Positions 7,432 to 58,497 of a stretch of DNA of 64,000 nucleotides are shown here, in pieces. The stretch's first letter is position 1, and each line of letters starts with the position of its first letter. This stretch comes from Methanosphaera sp. BMS. GTDB lineage: Archaea > Methanobacteriota > Methanobacteria > Methanobacteriales > Methanobacteriaceae. The stretch spans positions 310,001-374,000 of the forward strand of contig NZ_CP014213.1 in assembly GCF_003268005.1 (NCBI RefSeq), written 5' to 3'. Position numbers and translations under genes: made by a program. The notes beneath the pieces were generated by a model. That model made no database searches, was not told the DNA's origin, and saw nothing but the letters and a program-made list of their open reading frames with translations.

Positions 7432-8438
7432 ATGTGTACAGCAGCAAACCTTCAAACAGAAGACAATCATTATTTTGGAAGAAATTTGGACTTAGAATAT
7501 TCATATAACGAAACGGTAGTAATAACACCACGAGAATATGAATTCAAATTCCACCAGGTTGATAACATTGCCTCCCATCATGCCATAATAGGCATGGCAT
7601 ATGTTGTGGAAGATTACCCATTATATTATGATGCATGCAACGAGAAAGGACTGGCAATGGCAGGATTAAACTATCCCGGAGCCGTCTATAAGGATATGGC
7701 TGAAAACAAGGATAACGTTGCATCATTTGAATTCATACCATGGATACTCTCCCAGTGTGAAACGGTACCTGAAGCGATTGAATTGATAGAAAAAGTCAAT
7801 ATACTGAACCTTAACTTCAGTGAAAAGCTACCTGCAACACCACTTCACTGGATGATATCCGATAACAAGAATTCAATAGTTGTGGAAACAGACCAGAAAG
7901 GATTAATGATATACTTCAATCCAATAGGGGTAATGACCAACGCTCCTTCATTTGATAAGCAGGTATTCAATCTAAAGAATTATAGAAACATTTCAAACAA
8001 AACATTGCCAAATCTCTTTAGTCCCAATGTGGATTTGGAAGTTTATTCAAGAGGTATGGGTACTATAGGATTACCGGGGGACTTGATTCAGCTTCAAGAT
8101 TTGTCAAAGCAGCATTCACTTTACAAAACAGTGTCATCGGAGAAAATGACGAGGAAAACGTGAACCAATTCTTCCACGTTTTAGGTAGTGTAACCCAGCA
8201 GAAGGGATGCTGTGAAGTGGATGAAGATAAATATGAATACACAATATACTCATCATGCATGAATGCCACAAAGGGAATATACTACTACAGGACATACAAC
8301 AACTCACAGATAAATGCCGTAAGCATGAACAGTGTGGATTTGACAAATGATGAACTGATAGTATACCCGTTAAATGACAGTCCTTCAATCAACTATCAAA
8401 ACATTGATGATGAGGATGAAGAGGTAATGTACAGTTAA
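7432..8438 (+). pseudogene. choloylglycine (bile salt) hydrolase, split by a frameshift
   Basis: The Ntn-hydrolase family that removes glycine or taurine from bile salts. C2 is the catalytic nucleophile exposed after Met removal, and R17 and D20 (GRNLD), the Asn of GLNYPG and the Asn of TNAPSFD match family active-site positions. The first part ends at 8163. After GMGTIGLPG the true continuation (SASRFVKAAFTLQNS) lies in the other frame and runs to 8438. Together they give about 335 residues, the normal length. One missing base near 8082-8092 explains the break; the site has a run of five G. The conserved Arg of SRF is beyond the break, so the first part alone should be inactive. A GGTGAAAA ribosome binding site precedes the ATG. 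This activity fits gut life. Confidence 0.85.
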
Positions 8439-17350: not shown

Positions 17351-20300
17351 ATGAAAAACATTAAACAATTGCTATTGTTTGTTACTCTATTAGTACTTTT
17401 AATAGGAATAGCAAGTGCATCCGAAGTAAATGTGGATACCGCAACCAGTACCAATGATGTACAGACAGTAGCAGATGATTCAACAGCAGTATCACATGAT
17501 ATTGTTACACAAGAAAAACAGATTATTAAAACTGAAAAAACGGATACTCCGATAAAAAAAGCGGCAAGTATTGAAGTTACACAGGAAAACTATGATACAT
17601 ACTTCCAGGATGGAGTATATAGTGATGAAGCCTCAGATATACTATTATCAGGACAATTCAATGCTAAAGACTTTACATTTGCATCACCAGTATCCATCAC
17701 GTCAAAAGACTCAAATACAAAAGTTTATAACTCTTCATTCAACTTCTTTACAGGAGCAGATGGAAGTTCATTAACAAACGTTTACATAGAAGACAAAAAC
17801 TATACTAATGCAGTTATACTGCTAAGTGAAGTAAACAATATTAAAATTCAAAACAATACAATCATACAACATAACGATGAAGGAGAAACACATGCAATAA
17901 CAATGGATCTTTCAGACAACAACCTAATATCAGACAACAACATAACCGTCAGTGGAACAGAATATCCTGTAAAATATGAGGATGGATATATGCCGATAAC
18001 CAGTTTATCTGCAATTCATGCTCATCAAATAAACTATAATAGGATAACAAATAACAACATTACAACCAGAGCAACTAATAGCAGTGGTGGAGAAGTAGCA
18101 ACTACTGTAGGAGTTGATTTCTATGCAGATCCAATGTCTGCTTATATGGATGAACATGATGGTTCTGAAAACAATGAAATAAGTGGAAACATCATAACAA
18201 CTGAAGCAATAAAATATGCCTATTCAATCAGATTAAACAACATTATGAACAATAACACCATAAAAAACAACAAAATAACTTCAACAAGTTTCTATGCTTA
18301 TGGAATTGAATATGCATTTGGAAATTATTCAAAAATTATAGAAAATAACATAACATGTAATGGAAACCTGTCTTATGGTATAATTTACACTACAAACGGT
18401 ATGGGCGATATTAATAATGGTTTAATTGAAAACAACAATATACTCGTAAATGATGCAGACGTAGCATACCTTATAGAATTCTATGGAGGAGCTCGTTCAT
18501 TTGACACGGTAATAAATAACAACACTTTAACGGCAACAGGCGGACAAGTAATGGGTATAGGTGGATCTACATCCAACAGACTCAACATAACCAACAACAA
18601 AATCATCATCACAGGAAATTCAACAAGAACATTAAATGGTCTTTCTGAAGATATTTTACCAGAATTAACAGGTATAAAAATCGCAAAATCAAGTGATAAA
18701 GTTCTAATATCAGAAAATATGGTTAATGTAACAGATTTATCTGATGGAGATATTAATTCATTAAACCTAATGATAAAAAATAGTAAAGTATTGGATAATG
18801 AAATACACGTATCATCTTATGTCAATTCCAGATCATTTAATATAACAGGTACAAATAATACAGTAGAAGGAAATTATCCATTTACTCAAGAACCGGTAAT
18901 ATTACAAATGGATTCATTAGTTACAGAAAAATCAATTTCAACAAACGCTTATTTAACAGTAACAGATAGTAAATCAAACGTATTCACTCATGGAACAGTA
19001 ACTTTATCCTTAGATGGCCAAGAAGTCGGAAGTGCTCCAGTTGAAAATGGTAAAGCAAAAATTGTATTCGTTCCGGAAGTGAATGAAGGAACTTATGTAA
19101 TAACGGCAACTTACCAGGCAGATGATTGGTTCTTTGAAAACAGTACAACTGCTGATTTAATAATTTTAGCTCCATACAATGGAATTTACTATGTAAGTCC
19201 TGATGGTTCAGATTTAAATGATGGTTCAATTAACACACCTAAAAAAACAATTAACGCCGCTATAGAAATGGCTTCAAATCCGGAAAAAAATCATAACATA
19301 ATCATTCTGGAAGGAACATATCAGATAACAAATGTAGAAGTCCCATCTGCATTAAATATTACAGGTGAAGGAAACGTAGTACTGGATGCAAATCATGAAG
19401 GATTAATATTCACCATAAAAGCAAATGATACTGAAATTAAAAATATTAAATTTATCAATGGTATCAACAAAAATGGTGGAGCAATTAACACAACTGGTAA
19501 ATTAACTCTGGAAAATGTTACATTTGAAGACAACAATGCAACTTCATACGGTGGAGCAGTATATTCTGAGGGTGATTTAGTAGTTTCAGATTCAAAATTC
19601 ATTAACAATAATGCTTCTACAGGTGGAGGAGCAATATATGATGTTAAAGCTACTGTAACAATCACTGATTCAGAATTTACGGGTCAATATTCAAGTGGTG
19701 GAGGAGCAGTATACTCTAAATTCATGACAACAATAGATAATTCCGTCTTCACCGATAACCGAGCAAAAACGGGTGGTTCATTATACATATCAGGTAATGG
19801 TACAGTTACAGATACAAACTTTACAGCTTCAAGTTCCGACAATTCCGGGGCAGTATTATACCAGAGTGATATTCGCAGTTCAGTAAACCTTACAAATGTA
19901 AATGTTAAAGATTGTGTTTCAAATACGTCATTATTCCATTATAATAATGAAAAATCAGTTTTAGACAAGGTAAACATCACTGATTCAACAAGTACACAAT
20001 ATTTAATATACTTAAGCAGAGGAAACTTAACGATTACTGATTCAAACATTAAAGACAACAACTGTTCAAAATCACTAATCAATTCATATGACAGGACAAA
20101 TGCAAGATTTGCTGTGCTGACTGTAGAAAATTCCAATATAACCAACAATACTGCTTTAAACATCTTTGATGCAAGAGGAGAAATTGATCTCATATCAAAT
20201 GAAGTATGTGATAACACGGCAACCAGTGGTACATTCTTCAAAGTAACCGGTTCAGGAGTTTACACTGCCGAAGGAAATACCTTCCTAAGAAATAATATAG

Positions 20301-21457
20301 CCAATTTAACTGTTGATTATTATCAGGATGATGCAATCAATGCAGTAACAATTGATGTATCGGTAAAAGCAAGTATTTTAGATGAAAACAATATACCATC
20401 AGGTAAAATTATATTTATTAATGGTGAAACCCAAACAGAATATTCTCTAGATGAAGGTAAAGTATCCATACCGTTCACGTCATCTTCAATGATTAACCCG
20501 GTAACATTCAAATATGTTGATAACCGAATCAATTCTCTTGAAGAAGAAACCTCATTGGACATAATCATACTTAGAACTACAGATATAATCTATAACATCA
20601 TCAATAATACTGAAGGTAATGTACAGATAAATCTCACAGTTATCGATGCAGAAAATCAGGAAATACTGCCAGATTCCAGTATCAAAGTAACGGGTGATAT
20701 CACAGCAGATACCACAAGCGGAATATTAACTGATACAACACTCACCCCTGGAGATTACACTATAAACGTACAATACCTTGGAAATGAAACTCACAAATCA
20801 TCACAGACGACAATAACATTTACAGTAAAAAAAATACCACCAACACTCATAATAGATCCAATAACAGCTACCGTAGGTGACATTATAAACATCACGGCAA
20901 GAATCACCGAGCATGATGGAACAGTAGCCAACATCAACAAAGGAAAAGTAACATTTAAAGTCAACGGAAAAACATTGAAAGATGCAAGAGGTAAAGTTAT
21001 CTATGTTAAAGTAGTAAACGGAGTAGCAACAATTGAAAACTTTGAAGTACCAAGTGAATGGACAAAAGAAGACACCACTATCGAAGCAGTATACTCAGGA
21101 TCCACACAATGCGAAAAACTAAGCAGTGAAAAAACAGAAATAACCATAGAAAAAGCAGTGCCAACACTAACAACAAGTGACATAACAGCAACAGCAGGTG
21201 AAACAATCACATTAACAGCACAAATAACAGACAACGACAAAGTGATAAACAATGGTAAAGTAGTCTTCAAGATAAACGGTAAAACAGTCAAAGATGCTAA
21301 CGGTAAAGTCATCTATGCTAAGGTAGTAAACAACCAGGTAAGCGTAGAGTACACATTACCAGCTGATATGAAGTCTAATAAATACAATTTAACGGCAATA
21401 TTTACATCACCTGACTATGAACGTTTGGAAGATACAAAAACACTTACTATAGAATAA
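17351..21457 (+). CDS. adhesin-like surface protein, beta-helix plus Ig-like domains
   Basis: 1368 residues. Signal peptide 1-24 (MKNIKQLLLFVTLLVLLIGI, then ASAS). Residues about 110-510 are Asn-rich right-handed beta-helix repeats of the NNNIT type. From about 612 (YYVSPDGSDLNDGSINTPKK) comes a second beta-helix with GGAVYS and GGAIYD repeats like polymorphic outer-membrane proteins. After about residue 1000 there are Ig-like domains, the last two carrying NKGKVTFKVNGKTLKDARGK and NGKTVKDANGKVIYAKV. There is no C-terminal membrane anchor. It is probably secreted and held to the pseudomurein by its repeats, with a role in attachment to host or microbes inferred from the family. Monocistronic. 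Confidence 0.8.
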   Translation: MKNIKQLLLFVTLLVLLIGIASASEVNVDTATSTNDVQTVADDSTAVSHDIVTQEKQIIKTEKTDTPIKKAASIEVTQENYDTYFQDGVYSDEASDILLSGQFNAKDFTFASPVSITSKDSNTKVYNSSFNFFTGADGSSLTNVYIEDKNYTNAVILLSEVNNIKIQNNTIIQHNDEGETHAITMDLSDNNLISDNNITVSGTEYPVKYEDGYMPITSLSAIHAHQINYNRITNNNITTRATNSSGGEVATTVGVDFYADPMSAYMDEHDGSENNEISGNIITTEAIKYAYSIRLNNIMNNNTIKNNKITSTSFYAYGIEYAFGNYSKIIENNITCNGNLSYGIIYTTNGMGDINNGLIENNNILVNDADVAYLIEFYGGARSFDTVINNNTLTATGGQVMGIGGSTSNRLNITNNKIIITGNSTRTLNGLSEDILPELTGIKIAKSSDKVLISENMVNVTDLSDGDINSLNLMIKNSKVLDNEIHVSSYVNSRSFNITGTNNTVEGNYPFTQEPVILQMDSLVTEKSISTNAYLTVTDSKSNVFTHGTVTLSLDGQEVGSAPVENGKAKIVFVPEVNEGTYVITATYQADDWFFENSTTADLIILAPYNGIYYVSPDGSDLNDGSINTPKKTINAAIEMASNPEKNHNIIILEGTYQITNVEVPSALNITGEGNVVLDANHEGLIFTIKANDTEIKNIKFINGINKNGGAINTTGKLTLENVTFEDNNATSYGGAVYSEGDLVVSDSKFINNNASTGGGAIYDVKATVTITDSEFTGQYSSGGGAVYSKFMTTIDNSVFTDNRAKTGGSLYISGNGTVTDTNFTASSSDNSGAVLYQSDIRSSVNLTNVNVKDCVSNTSLFHYNNEKSVLDKVNITDSTSTQYLIYLSRGNLTITDSNIKDNNCSKSLINSYDRTNARFAVLTVENSNITNNTALNIFDARGEIDLISNEVCDNTATSGTFFKVTGSGVYTAEGNTFLRNNIANLTVDYYQDDAINAVTIDVSVKASILDENNIPSGKIIFINGETQTEYSLDEGKVSIPFTSSSMINPVTFKYVDNRINSLEEETSLDIIILRTTDIIYNIINNTEGNVQINLTVIDAENQEILPDSSIKVTGDITADTTSGILTDTTLTPGDYTINVQYLGNETHKSSQTTITFTVKKIPPTLIIDPITATVGDIINITARITEHDGTVANINKGKVTFKVNGKTLKDARGKVIYVKVVNGVATIENFEVPSEWTKEDTTIEAVYSGSTQCEKLSSEKTEITIEKAVPTLTTSDITATAGETITLTAQITDNDKVINNGKVVFKINGKTVKDANGKVIYAKVVNNQVSVEYTLPADMKSNKYNLTAIFTSPDYERLEDTKTLTIE

Positions 21458-22579: not shown

Positions 22580-23284
22580 TTATCCTCTTTTTAGCAGATG
22601 ATAAAGACTCCAGACGGATGTTTGATTCATTCGGGATATTGCCCTTTGTGTTGGTATTTCCATTGGACAGACATCCTCGCAGACTAATGACTTGACACAA
22701 TTGTTATAGAAGTGCTTTTTATGTATTTGTCTGTGAAGTTTTAGTTTTTCCTTGCTTGTTTCCTGGGCGGTGACCTTTGATGATGATACAGGTAATATCA
22801 CTCCCATGAAATTATCCTCTCCATTATAGTTGGGGCAGGATTCAAGACAACAGCCACACATTAGACATTGGGATACTTCATATTCGAATTGAATGTTGTC
22901 GGGATTGATTTTTGCATTCTCATCTAGCCACTGCTGTGCCTTTTTCATGTTTTCATATATCATGCTTCTGTCGATGATAAGATCTTTGACGATTGGAAAC
23001 TTACTTAACGGTTCTATCGTTATCTGATGAAAGTAATTCGTCATAACCTCTTTGTTGACGAATGTCTTGCATGCTAGTTTTGGCCATCCGTTTATGAGCA
23101 TTGCACAGCTACCGCATAATCCCTGAAGACAACTGGATGAATAATGTATCTTCGTATCATGCGTATGGTTTATTCGCTCCAGCAGGGTTGTAACCGGGAT
23201 GTTCAAGTCATCGGCATACTCAAATTCTCTTATGATTTCTTCATCATTTTCTCGTGTTTTAATTATAACTTTTAATGTTTCCAT
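22580..23284 (-). CDS. frdB: succinate dehydrogenase/fumarate reductase iron-sulfur subunit
   Basis: 234 residues. The N-terminal [2Fe-2S] site has C52, C57, C60 and C72 (CLQGLCGSC). The C-terminal ferredoxin-like part has CLMCGCCLESCP and CEDVCP for the [4Fe-4S] and [3Fe-4S] clusters. Electrons would run between the flavoprotein and the membrane subunit. I start it at the ATG at 23284, two bases after the flavoprotein stop. It is the last gene of a four-gene operon. It lacks the extra heterodisulfide-reductase-like domain of TfrB, the usual fumarate reductase subunit of this order. Confidence 0.85.
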   Translation of the reverse strand: METLKVIIKTRENDEEIIREFEYADDLNIPVTTLLERINHTHDTKIHYSSSCLQGLCGSCAMLINGWPKLACKTFVNKEVMTNYFHQITIEPLSKFPIVKDLIIDRSMIYENMKKAQQWLDENAKINPDNIQFEYEVSQCLMCGCCLESCPNYNGEDNFMGVILPVSSSKVTAQETSKEKLKLHRQIHKKHFYNNCVKSLVCEDVCPMEIPTQRAISRMNQTSVWSLYHLLKRG

Positions 23285-23286
23285 GA

Positions 23287-24963
23287 TTACCATCCCATCT
23301 TCTCATCAGTATCATTAAATGACACAATATATTCATCATCAATTTTACGTATAACAGTTGTTTTCAGGTATTTGTCCTTTTTTTCTGGATATTCAATTCT
23401 TTGATGAGCTCCCCTGCTTTCTTTTCTTTCCATTGCACATTTAATTATTGCCTTTGATAAGGGTATTAATGACTTTATCAGAACATATTCATAGTAACTA
23501 TCATGGGAGTAAACCTCTTTATCTTCGAGTTTTTCCAATTGTACCAGTGCATCCTTAAGTGTTTCCTCTTTTCTATAGATTCCCATAGCATTGTTCATTA
23601 TCCCTGCCAATTCTTCTTCAATAACATATGAGGAAGTGTGATTTCTTGTCTGGTTATTTTTCCATTCAACATATGCATTTTCATGCCTTTTAAGTTCATT
23701 CAATATTATATCATCATGATTATCTGAAGTAACATTTTGTCCTGTTATCTCTTCTGCCGCAACATATCCTCCATGTATGGCTCCAAGAAGTGAGTTTCCA
23801 CCAAGCCTGTTTGCCCCATGGTACTGTGCCGAACATTCGCCTATCGCATACACGTTCTTGATACTGGTTTTATGTTCGTCATCCGTTAATATACCACCCA
23901 TAAAGTAATGTATACCTGGATATACCGGTATTGGCTCAACTGTCGGATCAAGGTTCATGTATTTCATGCAGACATCATAAACCTCATCCAATTTGACCTT
24001 TACGGTTTCTTCGGGTAAAAATGACACATCCAGATATACGATGTTTTCACCATTAATACCGAGGTCATACTGATTGCAGACCTTATAGATGCTGCGTGAT
24101 ACAACATCACGTGGCATCAACGCTCCAAGTTCCGGATACCACTCCTCCATGAAGTACCATCTTTCATCATCCCTAAGTGTGTACAGACGACCACCTTCAC
24201 CCCTGGCAGCTTCGGTAATGAGCATGTTCTTCACGGGAGTTCTTATCGTGGTGGGATGAAACTGTATCATTTCAAGGTTTGCAAGCTTAATATCCTGCAA
24301 GAATAGCCTGGCTGTCGTACCTGCATCATTTTGCAGTGAACCGGATATCTTTCCGAATACCTTGTTCATACCACCACTTGCTATGACCACATAATCTGCG
24401 GCAAAGGACCTTATTTCATCTGTAAGTTCATTGATTAATACCGCACCAACACATCTGTCATCATCATCCAAAACAAGTGACAGGAATCTCCATCCAATGT
24501 AACGTTTTACAAGATTTTCATGCTCATATTTTCTAAGCATCCTAGTTATTGCAGATAATACCTGTTTTCCGGTACGTGCCCCCGCATATGCAGTTCTCTG
24601 TTTTTTCTGTCCACCAAAATATCTTTGATCTATGTTACCGTTATCATCTCGTGTAAAGCTTGTTCCAATATCATCTAACCACCTGATGATATCCGGTGCA
24701 TCATCAGTTAATTTTTTCACTGCCCTATGGTTATTTATTTCCTGGCCACCACTTATCGTATCAGCATAATGTTGGCTTGGAGAGTCATCCTGTCCCTTGG
24801 TATTTAAAGCAGCGTTTATTCCACCCATAGCCATCACGGATTGTGATCTTTCAGAGGGTGAAGGAGAAAAAAGACAAACGTTAACTCCCTTTTCTGCTAA
24901 TTTCACGCTGCAGGTTAAACCTGACAATCCTGCCCCTATAACCAATACATTCTTCGTATCCAT
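23287..24963 (-). CDS. frdA: succinate dehydrogenase/fumarate reductase flavoprotein, type B
   Basis: About 558 residues. The FAD site GAGLSG is at 10-15. Substrate and proton-transfer motifs are all present: QFHPTTI, TEAARGEGGRLY, MPRDVVSRSIY, PGIHYFMGGI and GANRLGGNSLLGAIHGG. Sequence around INAALNTKGQDDSP and YFGGQKKQRTAYAGARTGKQ resembles the Bacillus/epsilonproteobacterial type-B enzymes. The histidine that bonds FAD covalently in those enzymes is Gln41 here (RSQSVMAMGG), so FAD is probably held non-covalently, which tends to favour fumarate reduction. It starts at ATG 24963 behind GGGAGGT. Confidence 0.85.
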   Translation of the reverse strand: MDTKNVLVIGAGLSGLTCSVKLAEKGVNVCLFSPSPSERSQSVMAMGGINAALNTKGQDDSPSQHYADTISGGQEINNHRAVKKLTDDAPDIIRWLDDIGTSFTRDDNGNIDQRYFGGQKKQRTAYAGARTGKQVLSAITRMLRKYEHENLVKRYIGWRFLSLVLDDDDRCVGAVLINELTDEIRSFAADYVVIASGGMNKVFGKISGSLQNDAGTTARLFLQDIKLANLEMIQFHPTTIRTPVKNMLITEAARGEGGRLYTLRDDERWYFMEEWYPELGALMPRDVVSRSIYKVCNQYDLGINGENIVYLDVSFLPEETVKVKLDEVYDVCMKYMNLDPTVEPIPVYPGIHYFMGGILTDDEHKTSIKNVYAIGECSAQYHGANRLGGNSLLGAIHGGYVAAEEITGQNVTSDNHDDIILNELKRHENAYVEWKNNQTRNHTSSYVIEEELAGIMNNAMGIYRKEETLKDALVQLEKLEDKEVYSHDSYYEYVLIKSLIPLSKAIIKCAMERKESRGAHQRIEYPEKKDKYLKTTVIRKIDDEYIVSFNDTDEKMGW

Positions 24964-24984
24964 ATAATCATTACCTCCCATAGC

Positions 24985-25548
24985 TTATAACAGATAATAT
25001 AACACTTCTGCAATTAACAACAAAACAAATATCACTTTAAATATTACTGATGTCCAATATGAAAACTTATCAAAAGAGTTTTCTTCGGTTAAGAAACCAA
25101 ATGATACCATTAATCTTGGAATACTTATTCTTAGATGAATCAATAAAGAACAAAACAGTAGATTATCAATAATCAGGTGAATAAATACCATATGATTACC
25201 AAGTACATTAACTGGTGAAAGCGAATATGTGACAACATGCAATATGACAAAAACTACAATTGCAATTCCGCTAAGCATTTGTATTCTGGTATCATTGTTT
25301 ATATTATTATAATTCCTATATTTACGGTTGGCATGCCTATCCCTAATAAATAGGTATAAGCTAATTATCATATGAATCATTACCCATATGAATAATCTTC
25401 TGCCGGTAACCCGTAAACTAGGAGAATATGGAGTTATCCCAATCAGGTATAAAAGTGATTCAAATGCATGGCTTAACAGTAAAAAAATGATTACCAGTAA
25501 AACCAATGAATTAATCTTTCTTAAAGAAATTCTATCCAATAAACTCAT
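24985..25548 (-). CDS. frdC: membrane subunit of type-B fumarate reductase, cytochrome-b-like
   Basis: 187 residues with five hydrophobic helices, about 13-35, 52-70, 91-112, 119-140 and 160-187. Histidines sit in four of them: H27, H59, H104, and H124 or H138. That is the number and layout of helices and ligands in the di-heme SdhC/FrdC of type-B complexes such as Bacillus SdhC. Heme binding is therefore plausible but not shown. It starts at ATG 25548 one base past the preceding stop; AGGAAG lies inside that gene's end. It is directly followed by the flavoprotein gene. The protein would anchor the enzyme to the membrane and pass electrons from a lipid or other carrier. Confidence 0.75.
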   Translation of the reverse strand: MSLLDRISLRKINSLVLLVIIFLLLSHAFESLLYLIGITPYSPSLRVTGRRLFIWVMIHMIISLYLFIRDRHANRKYRNYNNINNDTRIQMLSGIAIVVFVILHVVTYSLSPVNVLGNHMVFIHLIIDNLLFCSLLIHLRISIPRLMVSFGFLTEENSFDKFSYWTSVIFKVIFVLLLIAEVLYYLL

Positions 25549-25549
25549 A

Positions 25550-26083
25550 TTACTTCCTACTTTCAACTATTCTTGTAATGGTGGATAATAATGATAAAAT
25601 CGTAGTAATTAATGCAACTGCATTAATAATCAATACCAAATTGTCTATCCTATAATAACATAATATGCAAACTATTCCTGGAAACGCTATCCAAAACTTT
25701 GACACATTCTTTCCCAAGCTATCAAATACCAGTTTACCCGTATTCTTTTTGCCTGAAGTATAAATAAACTCAACAAACTTAAATATCAATACGAGAATAA
25801 ACAATGGATGAAGCAGGCTATTCAATGATAAAATCAAGTATGAAACCAGTACAAAAAACATATCTGCACTAACATCCAGGAATGCACCCATATCCGTAGT
25901 GTTTGAAGTTTTTCTCGCAATCATCCCGTCAAGAAAATCAGTGGCCAATATTAAAATAAATATCAATATTGGAAGGATAATTTCCTGATTATGGCTTAAT
26001 AGATTGTTTAAATACCAACCAAAGACAACAGACAAGAAAATTCTTGAAACGGATAGAATATGTGGTATGTTTTTATAATTCAT
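25550..26083 (-). CDS. CDP-alcohol phosphatidyltransferase
   Basis: About 177 residues with several membrane helices. The active-site signature DG-x2-AR-x8-G-x3-D-x3-D is complete in FLDGMIARKTSNTTDMGAFL and the DVSAD that follows. These enzymes swap CMP on a CDP-activated lipid for an alcohol headgroup. The headgroup (serine, glycerol-phosphate or inositol-phosphate) cannot be read from sequence. I start it at ATG 26083 behind AAGGAT; ATG at 26125 would add 14 residues without a site. It heads the operon with the fumarate reductase genes, one base apart from the membrane subunit. That link suggests shared timing or a lipid tied to the complex. Confidence 0.8.
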   Translation of the reverse strand: MNYKNIPHILSVSRIFLSVVFGWYLNNLLSHNQEIILPILIFILILATDFLDGMIARKTSNTTDMGAFLDVSADMFFVLVSYLILSLNSLLHPLFILVLIFKFVEFIYTSGKKNTGKLVFDSLGKNVSKFWIAFPGIVCILCYYRIDNLVLIINAVALITTILSLLSTITRIVESRK

Positions 26084-26736: not shown

Positions 26737-29700
26737 TTATGATGTTACAAGTAATGTTTTGCTATCTTCTACTCTATCATAGTCTGTTGATGTAAATACG
26801 GCAGTTATGGTATATTCCTTGGCTTTCATGTTATCAGGGAGGGTATATTCAACCCTTGCAATGTTATTTTCTACATTTGCATAGATTACCTTGCCGTTAG
26901 TGTCTTTTAGTGTTTTACCGTTTATCTTGAATATTACTTTGCCTTTGTTTATGATGTTGTCGTTGTCGGTTATTGTAGCTGTGAGTGTTATTGTTTCACC
27001 TTTTTGTGCTGTTATGTCATTTGTTGTGATTGTCGGCGTGGCTTTTGTAACGGTTGCCGTAATGTTAGCTGTGGCTTTGTCGTATCTGGTTGATCCGGAG
27101 TATGATGCCGTGATGTTGATATCCTGACCGGTAAGATTAGCCGGTACGGTGTATTCAACGCTTGCGATTCCGTCAACCACCTTGGCGTAGATTACTTTGC
27201 CGTTAGCGTCTTTTAACGTTTTTCCATTTACTTTAAATGCGACCTTACCCACGTTTAATGCAGTGTCCTCTACTGTATTTATTCTTGCGGTTATGGTTGT
27301 TGTTTGGCCGGCTATTAACGTGACCGGATCAATTGTCATGGCTGTCTGTACCTTATTTTTCGTCATTGTTATGGTTGTCGTTGCATCATTGTATACTTGA
27401 CTGTCCGTGTATGTTACTGTGATTGTAATTGGGGATGTTGGTATGTTCGTATCATATATTATAACGTCCACGCTTGTAGTATCCTCCTCTATGATATATG
27501 ATCCGATAATCCTGTTGTTTGCCAGTACGTTTACGACTCCGTCATTTACCGTAGCGTTGAACGTTACGGTTAGGTTGCTTGTCTGTTCATCAATTGTGAT
27601 GTTTATATCACCGGCCGTCATTGATACGTCCCGTTTATATAACGTTAATGTGGCGGTTGCCGTTGAGTCTTCGAATATTTGGCTGCCCGTGTATTTGACT
27701 GTTACCGTGTTTTCACCAAGATTATAGTTTGAGGTGTCAACATCTTCTATGGTGATTGTTCTTCCATCAAATTCTGTGATTGTCGCTACGGGATTTTCGT
27801 CATCATTAATAAATGCCTCTATCATACCGTCTGTTATTGTATTGTTTAGGCTTATGGTGATTGTTGTCCTGTCATCTTTTGGAACACTTTCTGCTTCAAC
27901 AGTCATGCCCAGGTTATTTTTCTCTACATTGAATCTTATTATGTCTGACCTTTGGTTACATGTTGTAATGTAAAAGCTGTATTGTCCTAATTGTAGATTG
28001 GATAATGTTATGTTTTCATATCCTGTTTTGATTTCTTGGCCGTTTAGGTATAGTGTTATGTCTTTGATTCCCTCATTGAAATCTTTATAATAGTGTGGAT
28101 TTTCCAGTATGATGGTGTAGTTTATGATTATATCCTCACCGTAACCGAATATTTGATAATCTTTTATGTTTAGCTTTATCGTGTTAAGTTTCATGTCTGT
28201 GGAGTTATATGTGTTACCTTTAAGTATTCCATTTGTATATCCATATAGTTCAATCGTTTCCCGATAGTTTGCATGGTTATTGGTAAAATTGTTGCCTGTA
28301 ATATTTATGTATCCATAAGAGAATATTGCTCCACCAGCATTGGTTGCACTATTATCTGTGAAATTTGAATTTAGTATATAGCTAAATTCCTCATTAATAT
28401 TATTATTATAGAGTGCTCCTCCTATAATTGCAGTGTTATTCTTAAGTACCGAGTTGTTCATTGTTAATATTCCAAAACGATTATATATTGCTCCTCCGTC
28501 TTCTTCTGCCTTGTTGTTTTGTAGGGTGGAATTAGAAATTGTCATGTTTTCAACATTATTGTATATTGCTCCTGCCCACGTTGCAGTGTTATTTTCAAGT
28601 ATTGTATTTTCGATGACTACTATTCCATATTCATTGTCTATTGCTCCTCCATAGTCTGCATGGTTGTTGTAGAATTTGGAGTCAGTGATTGTTAAATTAC
28701 CCTCACTTAAGATTGCTCCTCCATATCTTGCCGTGTAGTTTGTTAATGTTATGTTTTTCAGGGTTAAGTTGTTGTTTTCTGTCATATTGATGAACTGGTA
28801 TGTGTTTTGTCCGTCGAGTGTATTGTTGTTACCGTTTATGATAATATTTGTGGTATTGGAGTTTTCCAAGCTCATACTTTCTGTTGCATTATATTTTCCA
28901 GGGAGTAAATTAATCGTATAGCTAGAATAATTTTCATGTGTAAGATGTGTCACTGTTTCTACTAACTCTTCGTAACTTGAAACGTTTGTTTCTTCAGGAC
29001 CAATTACCTTGAATGTTACCGTATTGGATTGTTGATTACATGTGCTAAAGTAAACTGTGTATTCTCCGGCTTCCAGATTGGGTAATGTCACATTTTCATA
29101 TCCCGTTGTAATGTTCTTTTGGCCGTTTATGTATAGTGTTATGTCTTTGATTCCCTCATCGAAATCCTTATAATAGTTAGGATTTGCAGGTACTATGGTG
29201 TAGTTTAAGATTATATCAGCATCGTGGCTGAATAGGTGTTCATTATCCTTTATGCTTAGGTTTATCGTGTTAAGATTAATGTCTGTTGAGTTATATGTGT
29301 TAGTGTTAAATTCTCCATTCTCATAGCCAAATAAATCTATTGTTTCTTTGTTGGCTGCATGATTGTCGGTAAATGTGTTTGCCGTAGCATTCAGGTATCC
29401 ATGAGCGTATATTGCCGCACCACTTTCGGTTGCAGTATTTCCTGTGAAACTTGAATTTATTATCTTGTCAAAGTTCTCACTAGATACATGATAAATTGCT
29501 CCTCCTAACTCTGCATGGTTATTGTTAAAACTGGAGTCGGTGATTGTCAGATTACCAGTACTGAATATTGCTCCTCCACGGATTGCGTTGTTGTTTTCTA
29601 GGAGGGAGTCTGTCACGTTTATAGTACCGTTGTTATATATTGCCCCTCCTTCTGTTGCTTTGTTGTTTTTAAATGTGGAGTTTATGATTGTTAATAATCC

Positions 29701-31341
29701 ATCATTAAATACTGCTGCCCCATTTGATGAGGTGTAAGAGGATATGTTAATGTTTTTAAGTGTTAGGTTGTAATCTTTGGCTATTTTTATGAATTGGAAT
29801 GCGTCATCTCCATAAAGTTCAAGGCCATTACCATTTATAGTAATATTACGGGTAGCTGAATTTTTCCAGTCAATACTTCTAGTTGCATAATAATCACCTT
29901 GAAGTAAATTAATTGTAAAACTGTTAAATTTCATATTTTCAGCAAATTCTATTGCTTCTTTTAATTCAAAGTAATCTGACACATTTACTTCATATTCAGG
30001 AGGATTAACATAGAATGTTACCTGGTTTGATTGCTGATTACAACTGGTATAATAAATATTATATTCTCCAGGTTCCAAATCGGATAATGTTATATTTTCA
30101 TATCCTCCCGTCATATTCCTCTGACCATTTATGTATAGGGTTATATCATTAATTCCATCTTCAAAATCCTTGTAATAATGGGAATGTGATGGGTTAATGC
30201 TAAAGTTTAATGTTACCTCCTCATCATAGCCAAAAGAGGTTCTGTCATCTTTTATGCTTATGCTTATCTGTGAAAGATTCATGTCTGTGGAGTTATAGGT
30301 GTTATCATTAAATTCTCCATTCCAATAGTTGTATAAATCTATCGTTTCCTTGCTGGCTGCATGATTGTCGGTAAATACATTACCCATAGAAATCAGATGT
30401 CCATTACCACATATTGCTCCACCAGTATTATTTGCATTGTTAGCTGTGAAACTTGAATTTATTATACTAATAAATACATCAGTATTAGTATCATATGATA
30501 TTGCTCCACCATGATTTGATACATTGTTGTTTTCGAATGTTGTGCCTGTAATGGAAAAAGTACCAAAATCACTGTATACTCCCGCTCCATTTTCTGCGGT
30601 GTTGTTATTTATGATGGAATCTGTTATTGTCAGTATTCCGGGTCTTTCGTTGTAGACTGCGGCCCCACCATATCTTGCATTGTTGTTGCTTACTGTGGAG
30701 TTTTTGATTGTCAGAATACCCTTGTTGTATATTGCTCCCCCATACATATAGGCATAGTTGTTGTTTAGGTTGGAGTCTGTGATGTTTAATAATCCCAGGT
30801 TGTATATTGCTCCTCCATTGGAATCTTCATTTTTGGCATTTGTTATGCTTATGTTTTTAAGAATCAAAGAAGCACCTTGATTTATATAAAATGCTTGCTG
30901 CTGATTTCCATCTATTGTTTGTCCATTACCATCAATCGTTAATACGATATTGGTATTTGTCAATTGAATCGTAGCGGTATTTGTATAAGTACCATCCTGT
31001 AATGTGATGGTAGTATCCTCTGTAGCTGTTTGAATAGTATTGGATAAATCGCTCCAAGTGGATACCGTAGCGGATGCTTCTTTGATGTTGTTATCATTTG
31101 AGCTACTTTTGTTAATGTTTTTACTTTTCTTTTGATTTTCTAAATTATTATCATTTTGAATATATTTTGTATCTAATTTGTTTATCGTATCATCCTGTGA
31201 TACTATTTGTGTATTGTCTAATACATTGTTTACATCATCGATACTGCCTGTTGTATCTGACATGGCATCTGTTGCACTTGCAATACCTGTCAATAGCACT
31301 ATAATAATTGTAAACAGTATTAGTGTTCTTATTTTTTTCAT
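26737..31341 (-). CDS. giant adhesin-like protein with three long repeats
   Basis: About 1534 residues. Signal peptide at the start (KIRTLILFTIIIVLLTGIAS). Three long repeats of about 335-360 residues each contain GGAIYN-type beta-helix coils, a FTDNHA stretch, TYNSTD, then a domain with DITLYINGQ and GYENITL. Repeats end near 30000, 28990 and 27900. The C-terminal part has further Ig-like domains, including two copies of KTLKDANGKVIYAKV or a close variant. There is no C-terminal anchor. I start it at ATG 31341; a TTG at 31350 is too close to GGAGA. It probably forms a long stalk at the cell surface. Only family-level function (adhesion) is inferred. Confidence 0.8.
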   Translation of the reverse strand: MKKIRTLILFTIIIVLLTGIASATDAMSDTTGSIDDVNNVLDNTQIVSQDDTINKLDTKYIQNDNNLENQKKSKNINKSSSNDNNIKEASATVSTWSDLSNTIQTATEDTTITLQDGTYTNTATIQLTNTNIVLTIDGNGQTIDGNQQQAFYINQGASLILKNISITNAKNEDSNGGAIYNLGLLNITDSNLNNNYAYMYGGAIYNKGILTIKNSTVSNNNARYGGAAVYNERPGILTITDSIINNNTAENGAGVYSDFGTFSITGTTFENNNVSNHGGAISYDTNTDVFISIINSSFTANNANNTGGAICGNGHLISMGNVFTDNHAASKETIDLYNYWNGEFNDNTYNSTDMNLSQISISIKDDRTSFGYDEEVTLNFSINPSHSHYYKDFEDGINDITLYINGQRNMTGGYENITLSDLEPGEYNIYYTSCNQQSNQVTFYVNPPEYEVNVSDYFELKEAIEFAENMKFNSFTINLLQGDYYATRSIDWKNSATRNITINGNGLELYGDDAFQFIKIAKDYNLTLKNINISSYTSSNGAAVFNDGLLTIINSTFKNNKATEGGAIYNNGTINVTDSLLENNNAIRGGAIFSTGNLTITDSSFNNNHAELGGAIYHVSSENFDKIINSSFTGNTATESGAAIYAHGYLNATANTFTDNHAANKETIDLFGYENGEFNTNTYNSTDINLNTINLSIKDNEHLFSHDADIILNYTIVPANPNYYKDFDEGIKDITLYINGQKNITTGYENVTLPNLEAGEYTVYFSTCNQQSNTVTFKVIGPEETNVSSYEELVETVTHLTHENYSSYTINLLPGKYNATESMSLENSNTTNIIINGNNNTLDGQNTYQFINMTENNNLTLKNITLTNYTARYGGAILSEGNLTITDSKFYNNHADYGGAIDNEYGIVVIENTILENNTATWAGAIYNNVENMTISNSTLQNNKAEEDGGAIYNRFGILTMNNSVLKNNTAIIGGALYNNNINEEFSYILNSNFTDNSATNAGGAIFSYGYINITGNNFTNNHANYRETIELYGYTNGILKGNTYNSTDMKLNTIKLNIKDYQIFGYGEDIIINYTIILENPHYYKDFNEGIKDITLYLNGQEIKTGYENITLSNLQLGQYSFYITTCNQRSDIIRFNVEKNNLGMTVEAESVPKDDRTTITISLNNTITDGMIEAFINDDENPVATITEFDGRTITIEDVDTSNYNLGENTVTVKYTGSQIFEDSTATATLTLYKRDVSMTAGDINITIDEQTSNLTVTFNATVNDGVVNVLANNRIIGSYIIEEDTTSVDVIIYDTNIPTSPITITVTYTDSQVYNDATTTITMTKNKVQTAMTIDPVTLIAGQTTTITARINTVEDTALNVGKVAFKVNGKTLKDANGKVIYAKVVDGIASVEYTVPANLTGQDINITASYSGSTRYDKATANITATVTKATPTITTNDITAQKGETITLTATITDNDNIINKGKVIFKINGKTLKDTNGKVIYANVENNIARVEYTLPDNMKAKEYTITAVFTSTDYDRVEDSKTLLVTS

Positions 31342-31829
31342 AATAGGCAATCTCCATAGTTTATGCTAATTTATATGTATTGACTAATACTTAAAATTTC
31401 TTGTATTATTCATGTAAAACTAGTATGTATAAATTAGTTTTACTTAGAATAACCGATGATTTAAACCACTTTCCACTATCTTCAAAAAAAACATGTGAGA
31501 AAAACTAAAATAATAAACTAATAAGATAAAAACATCAAAAAAAACCTGTTTACAACAAATAAAAACACACCTATAAACACCATCAACAGAAAAACAAAAG
31601 ATTAAACAAACACCCTCTAAAAGCATAGAAAACCATAAAAAAATATAAAAAATCAAACAAAATATTTAAAATAAAATAATCCTTAGATAGATAACTTTTT
31701 CTAAAAAAAGTATTTATATATTTTAAAGCAATAAATATAAACAATCACCTATAAAAGGTGATTAAAAAATAAAAATTATTTATAAAAAATGGGATTAAGT
31801 TAATAATTCTTTAAAAAGGTGATTAACTC
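31342..31829. promoter_or_regulatory. divergent promoter region
   Basis: TTTATATA at 31713-31720 after an A-rich stretch is a good TATA box for the gene at 31830. The transcript should start near 31743. Exactly there AATCACCT (31743-31750) pairs with AGGTGATT (31756-31763) around five bases. The real ribosome binding site AGGTGATT is at 31816-31823. The rest, towards the adhesin start, shows nothing clear. Confidence 0.55.
31743..31763 (+). promoter_or_regulatory. 5'-leader hairpin containing a Shine-Dalgarno copy
   Basis: A perfect 8-base stem AATCACCT / AGGTGATT. The left arm equals the anti-Shine-Dalgarno sequence expected at the 16S rRNA end. It could therefore also pair with the true ribosome binding site at 31816-31823 and control translation of the downstream gene. 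Confidence 0.45.
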
Positions 31830-34052: not shown

Positions 34053-37000
34053 ATGAATAAGAATGTAAAAAGTATATTCTTAGTCTTGGCAATATTAACA
34101 CTACTTGTCTCTGTAGCCGGTGTATGTGCAGCAGATGATATCGATAATACTGATGAATCAATTAGCACGCTACAAGATACCAGCAGTGATGTGATACAAA
34201 AACAGACAACAAGTCCAAGTGATAATAATAACCAGGACACAAAGAATATTGAAAAATCAATTAAACAATTAAAAGAAGATTCAATTACAATAGATGATAT
34301 TGAATATACCAATTCTATTGAAAATGAAGAAATTGATGAAATTTATATTGAGGAAAGTACATTCATTAATAATGTTCAAATATCTGACTCACTAGAAAGT
34401 GAAGCACCTCTTTATATTAATAACTCAATTATTAATACATATTTTGGTATTTATGGCAATGAAAATACAATATTTATACATAATTCTACATTGAATTGTG
34501 AACTTTATACTGAAAAAGATACGATACTTATAATAGATGAATACACCACATTAAATGATGATTTTTATCTTGATAATTGGGATGTGAATATTTACACCAA
34601 CAATAGCGAAATAATAAATTATTTCAAAGACAGTGGTGTATATATCGGCAATTCAATTATTGAAAATGAAGAAATAAATGATTATATAACAAATAATGGA
34701 AACTTAACTGTTAGAAATTCAACATTAAATGGGGAAATAGATAACAAAGGTACTCTAAGAATAGAAGATGATGTAATATTTGGAGATGAATTCATATATG
34801 GTGGTAATGGTGAAATAATAATCAACGACATTAGTAGACTTGCACCATATATGAATGAATATAATAATAACTATGCATTCAATAATGTAATTATAAATAG
34901 AAACAAATTCAATCATGCAAATATCAGCTTTACTAATTCAACATTAAACTCAACAATTTATAATATGGGATCTATAACAATTAGTGATGATACCATATTT
35001 GGAGAAAACTTTGCAATTGGTGGTGATGGTAAAATAATTATCAATGATACAGATAAAATCTTCCCATATCTTACCACATATGATGGAGATTATATGTTAG
35101 AGAACATTACTTTTTCCGGTAATTCTAAAACAAATAATGGTAATATGACTCTTGTTAATAGTGTAATAGATTTAGGATATTGGACTAATTCATGGGGTTG
35201 GGAATATTATACTATAGGTACATTGGTCAATAACGGTAATCTTACCCTGATAAACTGTACTCTTAACTGCAGTATAACTAATACTAATACTGGAAACTGT
35301 ATAATTGATGAATGTCTTATACCTTCAAGTGGTATAGGAAATACCGGTAATTTAACCATTAGAAATGTAGAATGGGATGGACTATTTGGAATGTCAAGTC
35401 AAAGTAATGTTGAATCACATGTTAAGATAATGAATTCCTCATTTTCAAACAATGAAGGAATATTCTTTGCAGGTACATATGGAGCCAACATTGAAATATA
35501 CAATTCCACATTCAATAATGTGACTACTATTGCACAGAATGCCAATATAATAATAGACAAATGTAATTTCACAAACTGTACTACTGGAAATAACTTCATT
35601 AGAGGATATAATGTATCTGTATCAAACTCAATATTTGATAATAATAAGATTAATAATAGGTTCAGTTTAATTACAATCACGAATGATTTGGGAAACATAA
35701 TAAACAACACATTTTCAAACAATTACATGAATGCTACTGATTCATGGAATTACTATAGTGGAATAGCAGTATATGCATTCAAATCAGGCGGTTATGAAGG
35801 TATAATCAACATTTCAAACAATAAATTTGAAAACAACTACATCAACGCTATAGAAGGACAAGTATTACCATATGATTGGCATGACTATCATTCCAATGGT
35901 TACGGAACAGATATACGAGTAGAAGCAGAAAATAATCTAATAATAGCTAATAATACATTTACAAACAGTACCACTACACAAAAAGCAGGTTCAATTTATT
36001 GTAATAATATAAAAAATGTAGAAATTTATGATAATATATTCAAAGATGTAAAATCAATATCTGAAACAATAATTCATAACAATTCTGTAAGTGTGACAAT
36101 ATACAATAACACCTACATTAACTCAACTATAGACTTTGATAATCTTAGTATAGAAAATCCTGGAAAAGTCTTTGCCGGTGATAACATAACATTAAAAGCT
36201 AATATAGCACTAAGTCACCCTGAATATTATGATGAAAATCTACTAAATCAAACACAATACAACTGGTACATAAACGGTGAAAATATAATAACAAACAGCA
36301 CAGAATACAACATAACCGTACCAGAAGACATGATGATAATCCATATTACCCCAACGATTACCAACACACGTAGTGACTTATTAGTTCTTACACCAACAGT
36401 TGTAGGTGATAAAATAATTACACCAGAAAATATAAACAAAAATCTATTTGAGGGAGAACTAATTGGAATAAGTTCAAACACTAGATTAATATTCCAAGGA
36501 GACTTTATAAATCTAGGAGAAATATATTCCAAGACAAACGCTACTGTATTCGATGGAACAAATGCAACATTTGTCAACACATCATTTGTAATAGAAGCAA
36601 ATGATAATACAATACAAAATATGAACATTAACAACACAGATACTTCAAACTACATAATAACTACAATGGGAAACAACAATCTCATAAGAAACAATATTTT
36701 AACTCAATATAACTCTGATGGACTAACTGCAGCAATAAAGGATGCAAACAGTAAAAATACGATAATAACAAACAACAGTATAAGCGTAACCGGACCTGCA
36801 AGAGACATTACATATGGAGAAGGAGCATCAATTGCTAACACACAGGCAATACTATCAATAAATTCAGAAAACTCCATAATCGAATACAACAACATAACAG
36901 TACAAAACAGTACAGACTCTGAACTAGCACCATTTGGTACAATAGAAGCAATAACAGCACCACAAGGAACCAATAACACAATTCAGCACAACAATATAAT

Positions 37001-38606
37001 AGTGACTGGTTCCAGATTTGTATATGGAATAAACACACTAGATAATATAATAGAAAACAAGATTATTTTCAATAACATAACTGTTACAGGTTATCGTTAT
37101 ACTGATGGAATACAAGTGGGTAATGGTGCACAAAATAACATAATCGCTAACAACAACATAAACCTCACATGTCTTAACACCACAGAAGTCGATGAAGCAG
37201 CAATAAGCTATGGTATAATAGTAACAAGCCAGGGAGGACAAATATCTAATAATAACACCCTAACTCAAAACAATATCCTCATTAATGGGGCAGTAAACTA
37301 TGGAATGGAAATTTATACAGCATCAAACACTAACATATCTAAAAACAACATCACACTAAATGGAGTAAAATCTATGGGAATAGGATATGCACATTCACCT
37401 AACAGTACTGTAACGGACAACAAAATTATCATAACTGATGATACAACTCAAACATTAAATTCAGTAACTGAAGAAATACAACCATTAAGTGTTGGAATAA
37501 GAATACAACAAGACTCAGAAAACATCACCATAGAAAACAACACAATAAAAACCAATGATGTGGCAAAAACTGATAAAACTATAAATACTGAAGATATTAA
37601 TACCATAGCCAGATATAATAAACTAACATCAAGTACTGGGTATGGACAAGACACAATTATCACAATCCCAGAAAATGTGTTGATACGAGACAACAAACTA
37701 CCAACAATAACAACAATGCAAATAGCAAATGTAATCCTAGCAAACAAACCAGTAGAAATAACTGCATATGTCACTGATGAAGACAATAATCCAATAACCG
37801 GTGGATATGTAACATTCAGAAAAGGATGGGACAACATAGCAAACATAACAGTAACAGATGGAATAGCAACTTCAACATTTACCTTTACAGAATTAGAAAC
37901 ATTCACATTAATCACAACTTACTGGCCGACAAGTACAGAAGTAATAGCAAGCAGTGATGAAAAAACAATCACAATAGAAGATGCTCGAACAATAATTAGT
38001 ATCGATGAAGTAAGTGCTACAGCAGGACAAACTGTGACACTAACAGCTAGAGTTACAGATCAATTGGGTAACAACTTCAACGGTGGTAAAGTGACATTTA
38101 AAGTAAACGGTAAAACAGTTAAAGATGCAAACGGTAAGGTGGTGTATGCCAAAGTTGTTGATGGTGTAGCAACAGCAACCTATGAAGTACCAATGGATGC
38201 ATCAGGTAAAGACCTCAACATTACAGCAGTATACTCCGGTTCAACCAAGTACGACAAACAAACAACAACCACCACAGTCACAGTAATAGAAGCAACACCA
38301 ACACTCACAATAACACCATTCAATGAACCAGTAACCACGGGCTCAACAGTAACACTCAAGGCAAAAGTAGCACTCGGAGACACACCAATAACAACAGGTA
38401 AAATTGTCTTTAAAATCAATGGTAAAACAGTTAAAGATGCTAACGGTAAGGTAATTTATGCTAAAGTAGATGTTAATGGTGAAGTATCAGTAGATTATAA
38501 CCTTGGTGATCTTAAGGTTAATACCTACACTGTTGAAGCTGTATTTACAGCAAGTGGTTATGACAAACTAACAAGTAATACAACAATGACTGTTGTAAAA
38601 GCTTAA
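34053..38606 (+). CDS. adhesin-like surface protein
   Basis: 1517 residues. Signal peptide 1-27 (KSIFLVLAILTLLVSVAGVC then AADD). A long Asn-rich region follows with repeated GGNGEIIINDISRL-like units and then beta-helix repeats (NNNIT type) to about residue 1200. Ig-like domains close it, with two copies of NGKTVKDANGK near residues 1350 and 1455. The stretch INGAVNYGMEIYTA to KLTSSTGYGQDT matches the truncated gene at 5011-5853. It is probably exported and wall-bound, with a role in attachment inferred from family. A GAGG site precedes the ATG. Poly-C runs and an adhesin pseudogene lie upstream, so expression or sequence may vary. Confidence 0.8.
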   Translation: MNKNVKSIFLVLAILTLLVSVAGVCAADDIDNTDESISTLQDTSSDVIQKQTTSPSDNNNQDTKNIEKSIKQLKEDSITIDDIEYTNSIENEEIDEIYIEESTFINNVQISDSLESEAPLYINNSIINTYFGIYGNENTIFIHNSTLNCELYTEKDTILIIDEYTTLNDDFYLDNWDVNIYTNNSEIINYFKDSGVYIGNSIIENEEINDYITNNGNLTVRNSTLNGEIDNKGTLRIEDDVIFGDEFIYGGNGEIIINDISRLAPYMNEYNNNYAFNNVIINRNKFNHANISFTNSTLNSTIYNMGSITISDDTIFGENFAIGGDGKIIINDTDKIFPYLTTYDGDYMLENITFSGNSKTNNGNMTLVNSVIDLGYWTNSWGWEYYTIGTLVNNGNLTLINCTLNCSITNTNTGNCIIDECLIPSSGIGNTGNLTIRNVEWDGLFGMSSQSNVESHVKIMNSSFSNNEGIFFAGTYGANIEIYNSTFNNVTTIAQNANIIIDKCNFTNCTTGNNFIRGYNVSVSNSIFDNNKINNRFSLITITNDLGNIINNTFSNNYMNATDSWNYYSGIAVYAFKSGGYEGIINISNNKFENNYINAIEGQVLPYDWHDYHSNGYGTDIRVEAENNLIIANNTFTNSTTTQKAGSIYCNNIKNVEIYDNIFKDVKSISETIIHNNSVSVTIYNNTYINSTIDFDNLSIENPGKVFAGDNITLKANIALSHPEYYDENLLNQTQYNWYINGENIITNSTEYNITVPEDMMIIHITPTITNTRSDLLVLTPTVVGDKIITPENINKNLFEGELIGISSNTRLIFQGDFINLGEIYSKTNATVFDGTNATFVNTSFVIEANDNTIQNMNINNTDTSNYIITTMGNNNLIRNNILTQYNSDGLTAAIKDANSKNTIITNNSISVTGPARDITYGEGASIANTQAILSINSENSIIEYNNITVQNSTDSELAPFGTIEAITAPQGTNNTIQHNNIIVTGSRFVYGINTLDNIIENKIIFNNITVTGYRYTDGIQVGNGAQNNIIANNNINLTCLNTTEVDEAAISYGIIVTSQGGQISNNNTLTQNNILINGAVNYGMEIYTASNTNISKNNITLNGVKSMGIGYAHSPNSTVTDNKIIITDDTTQTLNSVTEEIQPLSVGIRIQQDSENITIENNTIKTNDVAKTDKTINTEDINTIARYNKLTSSTGYGQDTIITIPENVLIRDNKLPTITTMQIANVILANKPVEITAYVTDEDNNPITGGYVTFRKGWDNIANITVTDGIATSTFTFTELETFTLITTYWPTSTEVIASSDEKTITIEDARTIISIDEVSATAGQTVTLTARVTDQLGNNFNGGKVTFKVNGKTVKDANGKVVYAKVVDGVATATYEVPMDASGKDLNITAVYSGSTKYDKQTTTTTVTVIEATPTLTITPFNEPVTTGSTVTLKAKVALGDTPITTGKIVFKINGKTVKDANGKVIYAKVDVNGEVSVDYNLGDLKVNTYTVEAVFTASGYDKLTSNTTMTVVKA

Positions 38607-57881: not shown

Positions 57882-58445
57882 TTAATAAAAAAATAAAAAA
57901 GAGGTGGTTAAATTATTGTTTATGGAGTTATTTATTTGAATTTTTTTAGAAATCAAATTAAGAATTCCACCAATTTTATTTTGAATATCTTTAGGAGGAT
58001 GAGGTATTTCTATTTTTCTAATAAATTTCATAGGTATTGTTGGTTGTGAACTTCCAACTAAATAATTTTCCATTTGTTTTAAAAAGCCATAACTTTGCAT
58101 ATAATTTAATAAAAAATCAGGATTAATCTGTTTTGGAGTTATTTTAGCTAAATTAGGTGCTAAATGATATTTATCATTTTCAATAATTTTTACAGAATCT
58201 CCCCATCCATTTCCAGTATAGGTTAATAAAATATCATTTTTGTATAATTTACTCCTTGTCAATTTTTCAGAGGTTTTATTATCTATATATTTAACATCAG
58301 TTAAATCTAATTTGTTATTTTTAATATTTAATGCACGTAATGCTATAATTTCACCTTTATCCTGATATTCAATATATTTAGAGAATTCAAAACCTGCTAG
58401 TTTAGTTACATCAGCTACTTCTTCTAGTTTAATATGCTCATACAT
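57882..58445 (-). CDS. HsdS-like single-TRD specificity protein
   Basis: About 187 residues from the ATG at 58445 behind AAGGTG. A TRD is clear: HIKLEEVADVTKLAGFEFSK, LYKNDILLTYTGNGWGDSVK and GSSQPTIPMKFIRKIEIPHP, followed by the DIQNKIGGILNLISKKI coiled-coil spacer. The end (NNNLTTSFLFFY) lies in a poly-T tract and may be shifted. No HsdM or HsdR is nearby, so it may be a spare or cassette for another type I system, or act on its own. A CTTCGTTA / TAACGAAG palindrome lies 53 bases upstream, which could allow exchange. Downstream lies the inverted HTH module. Confidence 0.7.
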   Translation of the reverse strand: MYEHIKLEEVADVTKLAGFEFSKYIEYQDKGEIIALRALNIKNNKLDLTDVKYIDNKTSEKLTRSKLYKNDILLTYTGNGWGDSVKIIENDKYHLAPNLAKITPKQINPDFLLNYMQSYGFLKQMENYLVGSSQPTIPMKFIRKIEIPHPPKDIQNKIGGILNLISKKIQINNSINNNLTTSFLFFY

Positions 58446-58497
58446 TTTATAACACCTTGAAAAATAAAGATTTAAAAATAAAAACAATATTTTTTCT

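Follow-up and report, generated by a model that had tools for sequence, protein, structure and literature searches.

Organization of the frdCAB locus

The window analysed, a stretch of 64,000 nucleotides from the genome of Methanosphaera sp. BMS, harbours an intact frdC-frdA-frdB operon, made up of three complete open reading frames (ORFs) on the minus strand at positions 22580-25548. Neighbouring genes of this set overlap or are at most three bases apart, and together with a pgsA-like gene they constitute four tightly packed minus-strand genes. The features of the locus, in window coordinates, are as follows:

22580..23293, minus strand: frdB, iron-sulfur subunit of 237 amino acids without CCG domain, with 11 canonical cysteines for [2Fe-2S], [4Fe-4S], and [3Fe-4S] clusters
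23287..24981, minus strand: frdA, flavoprotein subunit of 564 amino acids, with active-site residues H242, R291, H358, and R392
24841..24843, minus strand: codon of FrdA Q47, which occupies the position of the FAD-linking histidine (ERSQSVMAMGG versus RSHTVAAQGG)
24985..25548, minus strand: frdC, five-helix membrane subunit of 187 amino acids from the ATG start at 25548, or of 193 amino acids from an alternative TTG start at 25566
25135..25137, minus strand: codon of FrdC H144, helix 4, aligned to Wolinella H182, invariant (41/41)
25237..25239, minus strand: codon of FrdC H110, helix 3, aligned to Wolinella H143, invariant (41/41)
25372..25374, minus strand: codon of FrdC H65, helix 2, aligned to Wolinella H93, invariant (41/41)
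25468..25470, minus strand: codon of FrdC H33, helix 1, probable equivalent of Wolinella H44 judging from helix position, invariant (41/41)
25550..26083, minus strand: pgsA-like gene for a CDP-alcohol phosphatidyltransferase (PF01066, E = 8e-19), the first gene of the operon; its ORF is open from 26125, and homologues begin at 26083, the probable start

A preliminary description of this DNA had assigned FrdB, FrdA, and a five-helix FrdC with histidines in four helices to one operon, an assignment borne out by the ORFs, the domain matches, and an AlphaFold2 model. Contamination was ruled out, as the window lies within a single contig of 2.87 Mb and the operon occurs in about 30 related genomes. 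Chance ORFs were ruled out by the domain matches and the histidine conservation. Indeed, orthologous operons in about 31 genomes, dN/dS ratios of about 0.06-0.2, and four histidines conserved in 41 of 41 sequences indicate that the operon is not a product of chance.

Catalytic subunits FrdB and FrdA

FrdB contained a Fer2_3 domain (E = 4e-27) and 4Fe-4S domains, and its 11 canonical cysteines were conserved in 78-79 of 79 homologues, the three-cluster set being complete. Of the 488 positions of the TfrB model, FrdB matched 1-217 only, the CCG (HdrB-like) half being absent, in agreement with the earlier remark that the extra domain of TfrB was missing. FrdA displayed FAD_binding_2 (E = 8e-78) and Succ_DH_flav_C (E = 5e-17) domains, and its dicarboxylate site (H242, R291, H358, and R392) was invariant in 96 of 96 FrdA rows. 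The thiol:fumarate reductase of methanogens (TfrAB) likewise reduces fumarate by means of a homologous FAD subunit, and a TfrA-like gene, the product of which is 36% identical to FrdA, is present in the same genome. However, TfrB possesses a CCG half, TfrAB has no membrane subunit, and it occupies a separate branch of the tree. An identity of the operon as archaeal TfrAB was ruled out by the missing CCG half, the score of FrdA against the TfrA model (378 bits, with a cut-off of 718), and this separate branch.

The position of the FAD-linking histidine was occupied by glutamine in 90 of 90 family sequences, a count that for the bacteria is partly a selection effect, as one search pattern contained QSVMA, the archaeal members having been retrieved by whole-protein search; E. 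coli FrdA and Acinetobacter SdhA carry histidine. This glutamine (Gln47) predicts a non-covalent FAD throughout the family. Homologues with non-covalent FAD reduce fumarate and do not oxidise succinate (PMC9557727), which suggests, together with Gln47, that the enzyme would be a one-way fumarate reductase.

Membrane subunit FrdC and its histidines

FrdC could be recognised only through its profile and structure, since a single-sequence search of the PDB was uninformative and the scores against the curated families Sdh_cyt (PF01127; 17.5 bits, cut-off 25.8) and TIGR02046 (15 bits, cut-off 96) both fell below the cut-off. An alignment of 16 archaeal FrdC sequences contained eight invariant columns, four of which are histidines (H33, H65, H110, and H144). 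Among 41 FrdC sequences of archaea and Firmicutes, being 17-76% identical to the window protein, only these four histidines and G157 were invariant; the former are kept even between archaeal branches that are only about 22% identical. Searched against the PDB, the family profile retrieved FrdC of the Wolinella quinol:fumarate reductase (QFR; E = 1.2e-6), with H65, H110, and H144 placed on H93, H143, and H182, as well as FrdC of the D. gigas QFR (E = 7e-4 with the family profile and 1e-5 with an archaea-only profile). The Wolinella residues H93, H143, H182, and H44 are established heme ligands, paired as 93/182 and 44/143 in that structure.

The AlphaFold2 model of FrdC based on 41 rows, which superseded one based on 16 rows (pLDDT 82.5), consists of five helices (pLDDT 89.4, pTM 0.83), with the histidines in helices 1-4. 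The two best Foldseek fold matches were Chloroflexus 9lay_C (TM 0.64) and Wolinella 1qlb_C (TM 0.63), both single-subunit anchors of complex II, with high probabilities but weak E-values (0.01 and 0.48, respectively). The loop charges suggest an N-in topology, in which H33 and H110 would be situated in the outer half of the membrane and the pair H65/H144 in its inner half, as one would expect if each half held one of two b hemes. The di-heme-like character proposed earlier for FrdC had hinged on these histidines; their invariance in all 41 sequences and the alignment of three of them with Wolinella heme ligands leave that proposal in place.

The class (type) B complexes of Wolinella succinogenes (FrdCAB; PDB 2bs2 and 1qlb) and D. 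gigas (QFR; 5xmj) likewise have one five-helix subunit with four histidines, and share the FrdB clusters, the FrdA active site, and the gene order C-A-B with the present complex. Unlike in the Wolinella QFR, glutamine replaces the FAD-linking histidine and Leu142 stands at the position of the E-pathway residue Glu180, as read from the Wolinella alignment. In addition, FrdC counts 187 amino acids versus about 254 in QFRs of the Wolinella/D. gigas type, and the methanogen host, unlike the hosts of class B QFRs, makes neither heme nor menaquinone. The type-B likeness claimed in the preliminary description stands, being seen in the five-helix subunit, the four histidines, the clusters, and the active site; the complex departs from class B in the FAD-linking histidine, Glu180, and the curated cut-offs. 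For these last three reasons the complex is best called, judging from its sequence, a class-B-like variant rather than class B proper, belonging to a family shared with gut Firmicutes. The uncharacterised frdCAB operons of the latter (Faecalibacterium, Blautia, Ruminococcus, Paenibacillus silagei, and Mageeibacillus) show the same gene order, Gln47, and the four histidines, and their FrdA proteins are 42-54% identical to that of the window; they differ in having bacterial hosts and no linked pgsA-like gene.

Distribution, origin, and selection

FrdC was present in 31 of the 152 Methanobacteriota genomes searched (about a fifth), including genome G067, which contains a remnant only. The frdC-frdA-frdB arrangement is widespread in Firmicutes, where its carriers include Paenibacillus, Mageeibacillus, Ruminococcus, Faecalibacterium, and Blautia. 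In a phylogeny of FrdA, the sequences from archaea branched within the Firmicutes radiation and apart from TfrA (98% SH-aLRT), the host's own TfrA grouping with the outgroup. A first archaeal clade, composed of herbivore-gut Methanosphaera and Methanobrevibacter, had Paenibacillus, Mageeibacillus, and a genome of the Atopobiaceae as neighbours (99% SH-aLRT), whereas a second, smaller one (L056, L057, L066, and L095) was placed on the side of Ruminococcus and Faecalibacterium. A single archaeal origin of FrdA was ruled out by an AU test (delta lnL 110, p-AU 3e-40), run without NadB and another long row, since the long branches of NadB and TfrA had come together in a first quick tree. The FrdA phylogeny indicates that methanogens acquired the operon from gut bacteria (Firmicutes) at least twice, whereby the transfer that the preliminary description had put forward as a possibility is upheld. 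No report of a frdCAB operon in Methanobacteriales was found in the literature. Between close relatives, dN/dS amounted to about 0.06-0.2 for frdB, frdA, and frdC, with about 0.1-0.2 for frdC.

Among the bacteria, near-identical frdCAB operons were encountered in Peptostreptococcus, Blautia, Coprococcus, Megasphaera, Urinicoccus, and Anaerostipes (L108, L110, L111, L113, L114, L116, L118-L121, and L123-L126), pointing to a recent spread among gut Firmicutes, perhaps via a mobile element.

Supply of heme and quinone

Family searches in 139 Methanobacteriaceae genomes yielded no AhbD or ferrochelatase above the cut-off. AhbD-like matches in other genomes scored 237 bits at most, far under the cut-off of 500 bits, and were attributed to other radical-SAM proteins. 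Given this outcome of the check on heme synthesis that had been recommended before, with the late heme genes tested being absent in Methanobacteriaceae, heme must come from outside. In the same 139 genomes, no MqnA/D-like match was found and MenA never reached the cut-off, and neither cytochrome bd nor NarI/HdrE-type cytochrome b gave a match; control genomes responded in every heme, quinone, and cytochrome gene search, the absences resting on family searches. A non-exhaustive search identified no quinone-reducing enzyme in the archaeon.

Heme catalase was encoded in 16 genomes and absent from that of the window. Methanobacteriota lack heme synthesis, yet produce heme catalase from added hemin (PMC13135261), and the active catalase of M. 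arboriphilus requires added hemin (PMC13135261, PMC5467289), so that heme uptake in this heme-auxotrophic group is already known in practice. The Methanobrevibacter arboriphilus catalase, which works once hemin is supplied, parallels the predicted heme-bearing FrdC in its bacterial origin and its heme-auxotrophic methanogen host, although the catalase is a soluble detoxifying enzyme and not part of electron transport. As to the quinone, Faecalibacterium KLE1255 has no menaquinone genes and depends on menaquinone-making E. coli; its respiratory parts are an NADH dehydrogenase and a fumarate reductase only, the latter being its sole anaerobic reductase (PMC5738691). The Faecalibacterium loci L141 and L146 carry the same operon as the archaea. 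Faecalibacterium is the best precedent for quinone scavenging and, by analogy, a methanogen might do likewise.

Proposed function and alternatives

The reading to which we give somewhat better than an even chance is that of a transferred, class-B-like quinol:fumarate reductase that uses scavenged heme and, probably, scavenged quinone. Electrons would enter FrdC close to the outer membrane face, most likely from menaquinol, which would also be obtained from outside. They would pass two b hemes, the outer one held by H33 and H110 and the inner one by H65 and H144. From there they would reach FrdB, crossing its [3Fe-4S], [4Fe-4S], and [2Fe-2S] clusters in that order, after which fumarate would be reduced at the non-covalent FAD of FrdA. 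The heme b, not made by the archaeon, would be taken up from the gut. In this scheme we infer the heme insertion, the quinol as donor, and the one-way operation. Counting against it are the menaquinone genes that were not found, the quinone-reducing enzyme that a non-exhaustive search did not identify, two genomes without FrdC, the FrdC frameshifts, the FrdC scores below the cut-offs, and the weak Foldseek E-values.

Methanogens are classed by the presence of cytochromes, the Methanobacteriales being on the side without them. This division would be loosened by a di-heme subunit that is conserved, was acquired repeatedly, and occurs in about one in five of the genomes searched. In surveys, the users of heme b listed for Methanobacteriales are catalase-type proteins only (PMC8351635), with no mention of fumarate reductase or any other membrane cytochrome b (PMC13135261). 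The heme, and perhaps the quinone, of their neighbours may allow some gut methanogens to carry out a minor respiratory step. More broadly, and here our confidence stays a little short of even, gut Methanobacteriales could build a functional di-heme membrane fumarate reductase with heme and quinone that are both scavenged, or with a phosphatidyltransferase-linked lipid carrier in place of the quinone. Such an enzyme, acquired from gut bacteria on at least two occasions, would serve alongside methanogenesis as a respiratory electron sink that relies on borrowed cofactors. If true, rumen and gut methanogens would have a fumarate-reducing electron sink, and methanogen energy metabolism would depend on bacterial heme and quinone. 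The operon further points to an uncharacterised family, with glutamine for the FAD-linking histidine, that is common in quinone-auxotrophic gut Firmicutes.

A first alternative, which we regard as unlikely, is that FrdAB is the working enzyme with an unknown soluble donor, FrdC being an anchor or a fading relic that is free of heme in methanogens. Two Methanosphaera genomes, G124 (L041, 5507-7907) and G117 (L042, 6025-8408), possess intact FrdA and FrdB, which are under selection (dN/dS of about 0.11-0.16), and no FrdC anywhere, indicating that FrdAB may work with another donor. Furthermore, FrdC is split by a single frameshift in genomes G070 (L064, 3724-4277) and G096 (L043, 7326-7880), FrdA still being open, which possibly reflects real decay or an assembly error; the genes for heme and quinone synthesis that were not found would fit this alternative as well. 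However, no archaeal FrdC sequence departs from the four histidines, even at about 22% identity, and FrdC is itself constrained (see the dN/dS values above) and retained in 31 genomes, all of which speaks against this alternative.

Distinctly less probable is a heme-bearing FrdC that receives its electrons from a non-quinone donor. This would be some other reductant, either extracellular or soluble in the membrane, for which a lipid produced with the help of the linked CDP-alcohol phosphatidyltransferase is one candidate. The missing quinone genes speak for such a donor, as do the linkage and co-occurrence of the pgsA-like gene with frdC in archaea only. Indeed, the pgsA-like gene adjoins frdCAB in most archaeal loci, either upstream or downstream (linked in L039, L048, L049-L054, L057-L064, and L068), and of the 26 genomes with a strong match to it, 20 also have frdC (Fisher p = 6e-12, uncorrected for kinship); no such gene was detected beside the Firmicutes frdCAB operons. 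In G067, an intact pgsA-like copy lies beside the FrdC remnant, and between L039 and L040 the dN/dS of pgsA was higher than that of the frd genes. The pgsA-like enzyme may make a lipid needed by FrdCAB. Yet, a non-quinone donor is without precedent, the role of the enzyme could simply be to provide anionic lipid in support of the complex, and an archaeal subclade (G047, G076, G085, and kin) has frdC without the pgsA-like gene.

Reverse operation of the complex, as a succinate dehydrogenase, is very improbable. The best-scoring models for FrdA and FrdB were those of the Bacillus-type succinate dehydrogenase, but these scores were below the cut-offs, the FAD-linking position is Gln in 90 of 90 sequences in a setting where non-covalent-FAD homologues cannot oxidise succinate (PMC9557727), and these cells have no known strong acceptor.

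Least probable of all, and barely to be entertained, is the binding by FrdC of another tetrapyrrole of the methanogen's own making instead of heme b: the cells make F430 and not heme, and cfbC separates pgsA from frdC in four loci of Methanobrevibacter (e.g., L049, 8001-8795; L050, 5671-6468; and L051, 4848-5642), but cfbC is absent beside most operons and the same four histidines occur in the Firmicutes homologues, F430 not being known in Firmicutes. This interposed 'nitrogenase-like' gene was ruled out as a dedicated reductase, as it is the cfbC of F430 synthesis, and its position beside frdC is probably due to chance of location.

Other genes in the window

Very large ORFs surround the operon at window positions 17351-21457 (plus strand), 26737-31350 (minus strand), and 34053-38606 (plus strand). 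Two of these three, the translations of which were read, encode adhesin-like repeat proteins with similar C-terminal repeats. A group II intron reverse transcriptase/maturase is encoded at 58701-60245 (minus strand), adjoining a type I restriction specificity gene (57882-58487). Finally, the ORF at 7432-8163 (plus strand) encodes a choloylglycine hydrolase family protein of 243 amino acids, which may be a bile salt hydrolase in shortened form, its match extending over 223 of the 316 positions of the model.
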